Of a stretch of DNA of 32,518 nt, positions 13,539-14,724 are shown in pieces (position 1 is the first letter of the stretch; each line of letters begins with the position of its first letter). This DNA is from Alphaproteobacteria bacterium. GTDB lineage: Bacteria > Pseudomonadota > Alphaproteobacteria > ATCC43930 > CGMCC-115725. The DNA lies in contig JASHNY010000039.1 in the NCBI GenBank assembly GCA_030041385.1, forward strand, positions 1 to 32,518, written 5' to 3'. Under the pieces are notes generated by a model that had not been told where the DNA came from, ran no database searches, and was given only the letters and a program-made list of their open reading frames with translations. The position numbers and the translations under genes were made by a program.

Positions 13539-13569
13539 TTGACAGATTCGCGGGTGCGGCCCATATAAT
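13539..13569 (+). promoter_or_regulatory. rnpB promoter (sigma70-type)
   Basis: TTGACA at 13539-13544 and TATAAT at 13564-13569 are exact consensus hexamers. The 19-nt spacer is slightly longer than ideal. The -10 ends 6 nt before the inferred 5' end of RNase P RNA, as expected. It lies 25 nt after the stop of the TPP enzyme gene, so rnpB is independently transcribed. Confidence 0.85.
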
Positions 13570-13575
13570 CCCATC

Positions 13576-13993
13576 GCCAGACGGTCGGATGGCCGCTCTT
13601 CCCGGCGACGGGAAGGGAGGAAAGTCCGGGCTCCACGGAGATGCGGTGCCGGTTAACGGCCGGCGGGGGCGACCCCAGGGAAAGTGCCACAGAAAACACA
13701 CCGCCGAGCCCCGGGATTCCGTGATGGGATTTCATGGGCGGCAAGGGTGAAATGGTGCGGTAAGAGCGCACCGCGCCGACGGCAACGCCGGCGGCAGGGA
13801 AAACCCCACCGGGAGCAAGACCAAGTAGGAGCGGCAGGCATCATATGCTATATATGGTGTCGGGCGGATCTTCGCGCCGCCGCTCGGGTCGGTCGCGCGA
13901 GGCGTTCGGCAACGAACGCCCCAGATGAATGGCCATCCCCGCCCTCCCGCCTGTGGGGCGGCGGGACAGAACCCGGCTTACAGACCGTCTGGC
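13576..13993 (+). ncRNA. rnpB: RNase P RNA (bacterial class A)
   Basis: This is the catalytic RNA that removes 5' leaders from pre-tRNAs. The ends pair as helix P1: GCCAGACGGTC (13576-13586) with GACCGTCTGGC (13983-13993). Universally conserved blocks are GAGGAAAGTCCGGGCTCC (13617-13634), GGTAAGAGCGCACCGC around P10-P11, AGATGAATGGCC near the 3' domain and ACAGAACCCGGCTTA (13966-13980). At about 418 nt it has the normal length for the class. The apical part of P12 (about 13707-13741) holds ATGGGATTTCATGGG, also found inverted in the mraZ promoter. A 10-bp AU-rich hairpin with a 5-nt loop occupies 13837-13861 in the P15-P17 region. It lies directly upstream of mraZ on the same strand. Confidence 0.98.
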
Positions 13994-14128
13994 GCTTTCT
14001 CTTACCTGGAACGAACAAAGAACAATTACAATAGCAATCGCTCGCATTCAACCGATCATCTACATGCTGTGGCCGGACAAGGTGACAGACAAAGATTTAG
14101 AAGCCGCAAAATAATACTATCGGGGGTG
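13994..14128 (+). other. AT-richer spacer between rnpB and the mraZ promoter
   Basis: This gap is clearly lower in G+C than its surroundings. There is no obvious U-tract terminator after rnpB. A 16-codon ATG frame at 14064-14114 (MLWPDKVTDKDLEAAK) has no convincing ribosome site. I see no gene or RNA that I can name here. Confidence 0.4.
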
Positions 14129-14158
14129 TTGACTCCCCATGAAATCCCATGCTATCCC
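14129..14158 (+). promoter_or_regulatory. Candidate mraZ (dcw cluster) promoter
   Basis: TTGACT (14129-14134) is a good -35. TATCCC at 14153-14158 (18-nt spacer) is a weak -10; the frame of the -10 is uncertain. The predicted start near 14165 leaves an untranslated leader of about 95 nt before mraZ. A GACTC (GANTC) site overlaps the -35. The four TGGG boxes cover the -10 and spacer, an arrangement suited to repression. Confidence 0.55.
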
Positions 14159-14170
14159 ATACGCACCCAC
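14136..14170 (-). promoter_or_regulatory. MraZ operator: four TGGG boxes with 10-bp period
   Basis: CCCAT at 14136, 14146 and 14156, then CCCAC at 14166, read as TGGG on the minus strand with exact 10-bp repeat spacing. MraZ is known in several bacteria to bind direct TGGGN repeats separated by 5 nt upstream of its own gene. The location over the mraZ promoter fits autorepression of the whole division/cell-wall operon. Confidence 0.85.
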
Positions 14171-14259: not shown

Positions 14260-14724
14260 GTGGAACTGTTCCTGTCCACTTACACGAACAAGGTCGACCG
14301 CAAGGGGCGAGTTTCAGTGCCGGCGACCTTTCGTTCCACCCTGGCGACCCACCGCCACCCGAATACTGTGATCCTGTTTCCTTCGCTGAAAGACACCGCA
14401 CTCGACGGCAGCGGCAGCGATTACATGGACGACCTGCAAAATCGTCTGTCGCTGCTCGATCCGCTATCCGACGAGCACGACGACCTGTCGATGATGTTCG
14501 CCGACTCGCATCAGCTTGCGATCGACGGCGAAGGACGCATCATCCTGCCCGAGGCGCTGAAGGAATTTGCGCAGATCGCCGACGAGGTCGCCTTTGTCGG
14601 CCGCGGCGCGATGTTCCAGGTATGGCAGCCCGCGCTGTTTGCCGCCCACCGCGAAACCTCGCGCGAGCGCACTCGGCGCCAGCGTCCCAGCCTGCCGCCG
14701 GCCGGCGGCGGGCGGCCATCGTGA
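14260..14724 (+). CDS. mraZ: Transcriptional regulator MraZ
   Basis: A 154-residue protein with two SpoVT-AbrB DNA-binding domains. FLSTYTNKVDRKGRVSVPA lies near the N-terminus, and LAIDGEGRIILPEALKEFA with DEVAFVGRGAMFQVW forms the second half. MraZ forms ring-shaped oligomers and represses the dcw operon through TGGG repeats, which are present upstream. I prefer GTG 14260 (VELFLSTY, with GGGGA about 5 nt upstream), since family members begin at this point; TTG 14248 with GGGGAG upstream is a possible alternative. The in-frame ATG at 14149 lies inside the operator and promoter and is unlikely. The last codons overlap the rsmH start (GTGA). Confidence 0.93.
   Translation: MELFLSTYTNKVDRKGRVSVPATFRSTLATHRHPNTVILFPSLKDTALDGSGSDYMDDLQNRLSLLDPLSDEHDDLSMMFADSHQLAIDGEGRIILPEALKEFAQIADEVAFVGRGAMFQVWQPALFAAHRETSRERTRRQRPSLPPAGGGRPS

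Follow-up and report, generated by a model that had tools for sequence, protein, structure and literature searches.

Candidate auxiliary MraZ sites in and around the RNase P RNA gene next to the mraZ operator in Alphaproteobacteria

In an alphaproteobacterial genome, the RNase P RNA gene (rnpB) carries in its helix P12 an inverted copy of two boxes of the neighbouring mraZ operator, which raises the question of whether this repeat belongs to RNase P, to chance or to MraZ. Few bacterial regulators are as conserved as MraZ, which assembles into oligomeric rings; to our knowledge, it is unclear which targets it has outside its own operon and why it is ring-shaped. The PDB has MraZ entries such as 1n0e, 9qlg, 9qlr and 9sx6. 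According to the accessible part of one report (PMC7761207), the Burkholderia cenocepacia protein binds a fragment with four 7-nt repeats separated by 3-nt gaps, each of which is, in its authors' view, probably recognised by an octameric ring, and oligomeric rings are stated for Mollicutes. In literature searches that mostly did not extend to subscription journals, no report of MraZ sites at rnpB was found, and a term search in the accessible part of a paper on the Rhodobacter sphaeroides dcw leader (PMC5089854) gave no match.

Two-box sites at the rnpB-mraZ locus and in close relatives

The features of the locus within the window, i.e., the whole stretch of DNA analysed (32,518 nt), are compiled in Table 1. 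rnpB lies directly upstream of mraZ, the identity of which, proposed in the initial annotation, is supported by the PF02381 match; the encoded protein contains DRKGR and DGEGR, which we take to be two copies of the DxxxR motif.

Table 1. Features of the rnpB-mraZ locus in the window.
Feature	Position	Strand	Basis or remark
rnpB, class A RNase P RNA	13577-13996	+	Rfam RF00010, 294.8 bits
rnpB promoter (presumed): TTGACA 13539-13544, TATAAT 13564-13569	13539-13569	+	19-nt gap; consensus match alone
Two MraZ-type boxes, CCCAT ATAAT CCCAT (CCCATATAATCCCAT), across rnpB -10	13560-13574	+	Script pattern search
Two MraZ-type boxes, CCCAT GAAAT CCCAT on the minus strand, apical rnpB P12	13724-13738	-	Sequence and Rfam match
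mraZ operator: four CCCA boxes (14136, 14146, 14156, 14166), 10-bp period	14136-14170	+	Sequence
mraZ promoter (presumed), overlapped by the mraZ operator	TTGACT 14129-14134, TATCCC 14153-14158	+	Sequence
mraZ, GTG start inferred	14260-14724	+	PF02381, 5.9e-16

The P12 segment ATGGGATTTCATGGG is indeed the exact inverse of positions 14136-14150, and the shared 15-mer, CCCATGAAATCCCAT, is read on the plus strand in the operator and on the minus strand in P12, with no other copy either in the window or in the 4.39-Mb genome. It was also absent from 100 shuffles, and the shorter pattern CCCA-N6-CCCA occurs five times in the window, once in P12, once in the rnpB promoter and as three overlapping pairs in the operator, so that five of the 53 pairs in the entire genome fall within this stretch of around 600 bp. 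Both counts agree with the earlier judgement that chance is a less expected origin at this spot. The P12 pair reads GATGGGA TTT CATGGGC, which keeps the 10-bp TGGG period, and the third phase is degenerate, with GGGT standing 10 bp further on, as had been described. The Rfam match places the 15-mer within the apical insertion of P12. On these sequence features, the repeat is an MraZ-type box pair and not a product of RNase P conservation, in keeping with the wide variation of P12 sequence across 33 relatives. Strong conservation of P12 had been considered separately and was rejected on that divergence. The P12 and the promoter site comprise two boxes each and lie at rnpB; neither forms a series of at least three boxes at the mraZ promoter.

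The window's genus is represented by eight genomes in the sample, from seven of which, including G000, the rnpB locus was retrieved (none from G006). Six of these seven loci (G000, G001, G002, G004, G005 and G007) carry the promoter pair, CCCATATAATCCCAT in the window, which the initial annotation had overlooked and which is better conserved in the genus than the P12 pair; G003 has CCCA followed by CCCG, and G033, labelled as another genus, shows three boxes at its rnpB promoter. Within the genus, the promoter boxes keep their spacing to one another, and the stretch between the second box and the 5' end of rnpB varies in length. P12 pairs are present in G000, G002 and G003 and absent in G001, G004, G005 and G007, and these four relatives retain their mraZ boxes, so that the proposed alignment of P12 with the mraZ promoters came out against the P12 copy as a conserved partner of the operator. 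G020 and G010, of other genera of the same family, have P12 pairs of their own. In G003, G020 and G010, the letters between the P12 boxes are not those found in the operator, and the 10-bp box spacing is retained. The exact 15-nt identity was rejected as the conserved unit: the spacer GAAAT varies, and the boxes and their period are kept.

Exact copies of the 15-mer numbered eight in 61 relatives and 13 in 250 class genomes, and since five are common to both sets, the union is 16. By inspection, nine of them lie at mraZ operators (G000, G043, G053, G054, G131, G142, G152, G177 and G196), two in P12 (G000 and G002) and four upstream of rnpB (two in G018, one each in G199 and G284). The sole copy found away from mraZ and rnpB is at G134:C7:224751-224765 (L261), with no MraZ coding sequence detected by tblastn within 1.5 kb. 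A separate observation concerns the P12 helices of G010 (L095) and G498 (L353), which have CCCA-N6-CCCA on the 5' strand and TGGG-N6-TGGG on the 3' strand; there, judged from the letters, one helix combines RNA pairing with a two-sided MraZ-type site.

Distribution of box pairs over rnpB and mraZ loci of the class

The class sample consisted of 183 rnpB loci, made up of family relatives and class-draw loci (250 genomes) among the matches listed, and was split by the presence, in the downstream flank that had been fetched, of an MraZ match (tblastn) or a three-box operator into 115 adjacent and 65 non-adjacent loci, after exclusion of three of the 68 non-adjacent ones for short flanks (G026, G033 and G106). 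The scripts located rnpB, P12 and 5' ends from anchor motifs and not with Rfam, the rnpB end of G538 being a hand estimate; eight loci at 37-46% MraZ protein identity were left out of the comparisons. Three to five operator boxes were found in 90 of the 115 adjacent loci.

From -300 to the rnpB end, the adjacent loci contain 29 period-10 TGGG or CCCA pairs, as compared to a mean of 4.61 in dinucleotide shuffles (sd 2.10, maximum 11, n = 200), a result whose P12 part is exploratory for the first sample, as those pairs had been seen before the test was set up. In particular, 21 TGGG pairs at spacing 10 occur in 14 genomes (other spacings, mean 1.17, maximum 5) and eight CCCA pairs in eight genomes (mean 0.71, maximum 4). 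With regard to genomes, a pair is present in 19 of 115 adjacent versus none of 65 non-adjacent loci (Fisher p = 0.0002, ignoring phylogeny), leaving 96 adjacent loci without one, and without the added family relatives the ratio is 9/90 versus 0/64, the nine including G008, a class-draw member of the same family. Positive rnpB clusters amount to 18 of 99 at 90% identity, 13 of 85 at 85% and 4 of 32 at 80%, the last of which means that independence is limited. Between -900 and -300, the adjacent loci showed no clear excess (one TGGG and three CCCA pairs versus means of 0.96 and 1.12 at other spacings).

The pairs are located in P12, in other parts of rnpB, in the rnpB promoter and in an upstream amidase gene, and the pair of G108 sits in the presumed rnpB core promoter, as in the window's genus. 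Orientation is not fixed under this looser pattern, with CCCA on the sense strand in eight of the 29 pairs. As for P12, nine of ten TGGG pairs and two of three CCCA pairs among 180 adjacent or f49/f74 loci (two families described below) have spacing 10. In 385 genomes across the class, many of them already in the earlier samples, the 3' base of P12 was searched for two TGGG words separated by 0-22 letters, which revealed no new certain case: there were 15 matches in 14 genomes, of which, on known rnpB coordinates, G000 alone has period 10 and G156 alone period 7, seven genomes match off the listed rnpB, and five have no rnpB coordinates (G277, G582, G602, G611 and G621). As this search gave no further certain pair, the use of P12 is rare, with two families so far in our samples.

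MraZ is encoded in 57 of the 65 non-adjacent genomes, yet none of the 65 rnpB loci has a pair. Of these 57 genomes, 30 were available as loci, 20 were fetched (G084 as 270 bases only) and seven were not (G141, G115, G096, G146, G220, G206 and G268), G206 being covered by a locus from a phylum-wide triple-box search. That search contributed its alphaproteobacterial loci to the mraZ loci considered next and, among the matches listed, returned by reading mostly non-mraZ triples outside Alphaproteobacteria. Altogether, tblastn gave a match in 76 of 82 candidate mraZ loci, corresponding to 75 genomes; removal of ten with rnpB in the flank and eight without a two-box operator gave 57 loci. In these 57 mraZ loci with at least two boxes and no rnpB in the upstream flank, which do not count as independent (genus g215 alone supplies six) and some of which have rnpB just past the flank of about 1.3-1.5 kb, no pairs were found at -1300 to -400. 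The same loci hold five pairs at -400 to -150, in G129 (L313), G055 (L331) and G232 (L340), at about -200 to -245 from the operator.

In the 90 adjacent loci with three boxes, the excess is uneven and lies upstream, at about -150 to -1300 from the operator, and 200-900 downstream there are one TGGG and no CCCA pairs. Distant pairs thus accompany the rnpB-operator neighbourhood in this sample, and their occurrence only in cis with the main operator (19/115 versus 0/65) is an association and not proof, since adjacent and non-adjacent genomes differ in ancestry; their base composition is also unlike.

Box specificity and the families f49 and f74

Among all four-letter words compared at spacing 10, TGGG comes out on top in the adjacent set (252 words), where CATG is third and CCCA fourth, and also in the f49/f74 set (245 words), and it is outside the top 12 in the non-adjacent set. 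Outside the box words, only AGGT shows a strong period of 10; it is second in the adjacent set and leads the non-adjacent one, and is therefore probably a feature of rnpB itself. When the box words were rotated (six rotations), the adjacent set had 0-2 pairs at this spacing and the f49/f74 set 0-3.

Three flank positions, which are letters outside the search pattern, were also compared. The base before the box is A in 0.70 of paired boxes, 0.73 of operator boxes and 0.16 of the background, i.e., unpaired TGGG from these same regions; the base after it is A in 0.68, 0.61 and 0.24, and C at -2 has 0.56, 0.46 and 0.28, respectively. At group level, the pairs hence have operator-like flanks (CATGGGA) around the TGGG core, form direct repeats at a 10-bp period and share the box of the main operator, as auxiliary operators would. 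The wider spacer differs, A at -4 being found in 0.47 of operator boxes versus 0.09 of paired boxes. The repeat does not run into the spacers, those after the first and the second box agreeing on average at 1.68 of 6 positions (94 pairs).

A further 65 new genomes came from f49 and f74, families chosen since members had shown pairs, and for this reason the following counts are not an unbiased replicate: 55 TGGG pairs at spacing 10 in 31 of the 65 genomes (other spacings, mean 2.08, maximum 12) and ten CCCA pairs in ten genomes (mean 0.71, maximum 7), with f74 contributing pairs in 1 of its 17 new genomes. The flank contains a three-box operator in 40 of the 65. The pairs stand mostly upstream at -180 to -284, at about +29, in P12 at about +150 (G489, G498, G508 and G513) and at +260 to +280, and a further 13 TGGG pairs in eight genomes lie at -900 to -300. 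At the position of about +29, TGGGATCCCATGGG is found in G502, G494 and G516 (L364, L366 and L368).

In 44 f49/f74 loci with three boxes, five TGGG and six CCCA pairs lie 0-250 downstream of the operator, and the excess in these families is not purely upstream. At 600-1200 downstream of the same 44 operators, TGGG pairs occur in six genomes (other spacings, mean 0.00), possibly as sites inside dcw genes.

The gene upstream of rnpB in G513 encodes an N-acetylmuramoyl-L-alanine amidase (PF01510) in which the boxes are translated as GTAWD-like repeats near its C-terminus, and the translations of G489 and G498 are similar. In the AmpD-like amidase at L354:716-1489, and also in L351 and L353, the boxes encode GTAWD/DGTAWDG-like repeats. 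It may be that this insertion in the amidase protein is kept for its DNA.

A stricter pattern, TGGGANNNCATGGG, was searched in 16 genomes picked for having pairs and gave 71 sites, 53 of them within 2.5 kb of rnpB and 18 elsewhere, whereas the reversed control pattern gave nine sites in all in the same genomes. The 53 sites divide into 22 upstream of rnpB, seven inside and 24 downstream, 22 of the latter in operator orientation. Each of the 29 that lie upstream of rnpB or within it is oriented against the operator, with TGGG on the sense strand of rnpB; the genus promoter pairs have CCCA on that strand, and orientation is mixed under the looser pattern.

Possible functions of the pairs

We consider it somewhat likelier than even, at a rough probability of 0.55, that the P12 and promoter repeats are two-box auxiliary MraZ sites working together with the main mraZ operator. 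MraZ, held at the strong four-box operator, would also grip weak pairs about 150-1300 bp upstream, and the DNA across rnpB would thereby be folded or coated. The rnpB promoter, its -10 being covered by the pair in this genus, would be transcribed less, and/or repression of mraZ-dcw would be tightened, with P12 serving as a second grip or a roadblock. Given the pair over the presumed rnpB -10, occlusion of rnpB would be the simplest local effect. MraZ binding, bridging and rnpB as the target are what we infer from the arrangement of the boxes, and a pair of boxes may not suffice for firm binding. The pairs seem to be placed where letters can change, namely in P12, further places in rnpB, promoter spacers and a protein loop. 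As regards the bridging or action on rnpB suggested in the initial annotation, it is favoured by recurrent pairs that were found only in rnpB-mraZ neighbourhoods; the P12 copy itself is labile. For Mycoplasma genitalium, the accessible part of PMC8475190 states that repression by MraZ needs the transcriptional linkage of mraZ, operator and cluster, which we count in favour of auxiliary sites.

The strongest competing explanation holds that the pairs are MraZ sites that serve autorepression of mraZ-dcw by looping alone, rnpB being incidental DNA. It would account for an excess spread over about 150-1300 bp upstream regardless of content (rnpB, promoter or amidase gene) and for the lack of pairs at the 65 rnpB loci away from mraZ, but the 57 mraZ loci without rnpB in the flank have none at -1300 to -400, and the pair of the genus and of G108 lies inside the presumed rnpB core promoter; we regard it as rather unlikely. 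Still less probable is that the P12 match arose here by chance in a G-rich variable hairpin. P12 evolves fast, its basal TGGG is partly set by pairing with CCC in the folds, and no further certain P12 pair was seen in the 385 genomes; against this, spacing 10 prevails among the P12 pairs of the 180 loci, the 15-mer is in the P12 of two species, and all but one of its 16 copies fall at mraZ, in P12 or upstream of rnpB.

Spread by a small repeat element or by 10-bp slippage, independent of MraZ, could be invoked for pairs that sit in variable RNA helices and an amidase loop, as inserted palindromic elements do by general description, and for f49 amidases with runs such as GTAWDGTVWDG, but the poor agreement of the spacers, the position of AGGT as the sole other strong period-10 word, one that also leads the non-adjacent set, and the concentration of 53 of 71 sites at one locus instead of many dispersed copies make it very improbable. 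Pairing between the P12 and operator transcripts, for which the 15-mer is perfectly complementary in the window genome, or a G-quadruplex from the GGG tracts, as reported at the Staphylococcus aureus mraZ promoter in the accessible part of PMC11796246, is hardly credible, as the spacer mismatches in G003, G020 and G010 mean that complementarity is not kept, and the fixed 10-bp period and the flanking A and CA are not expected of a quadruplex.

Auxiliary MraZ sites would represent a known regulator with a new placement of its candidate sites. They share with the MraZ dcw operator of E. coli, as generally described, and of B. cenocepacia, in the accessible part of PMC7761207, a heptamer-like box at a 10-bp period, here CATGGGA NNN CATGGGA, and differ from it in having two boxes, hundreds of bp off, often inverse and in another gene or promoter. 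The lac operators O2 and O3, as commonly portrayed, are likewise weak extra sites within about 1 kb around a main operator, some of them in genes; here, by contrast, the sites are in a structural RNA gene, a promoter or an amidase gene, their places vary by lineage and looping is putative. Rickettsia palindromic elements, as usually depicted, resemble the pairs in occupying variable helices and protein loops, whereas the pairs are confined to one locus, short and free in their spacers.

A broader reading, which we put forward tentatively and judge a little short of even odds from the sequence patterns, is that in several alphaproteobacterial lineages MraZ may unite the amidase, rnpB and the dcw cluster as one regulatory unit, bridging the strong operator to weak pairs in dispensable letters of neighbouring genes (the variable helices of rnpB and the loop of an AmpD-like amidase). 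The extra pairs beside the main operator make bridging by MraZ testable. The arrangement suggests that operators can be accommodated in the variable regions of a gene for a catalytic RNA, and it hints that RNase P RNA may be connected to cell-division control; if true, the supply of RNase P would be coupled to that control.
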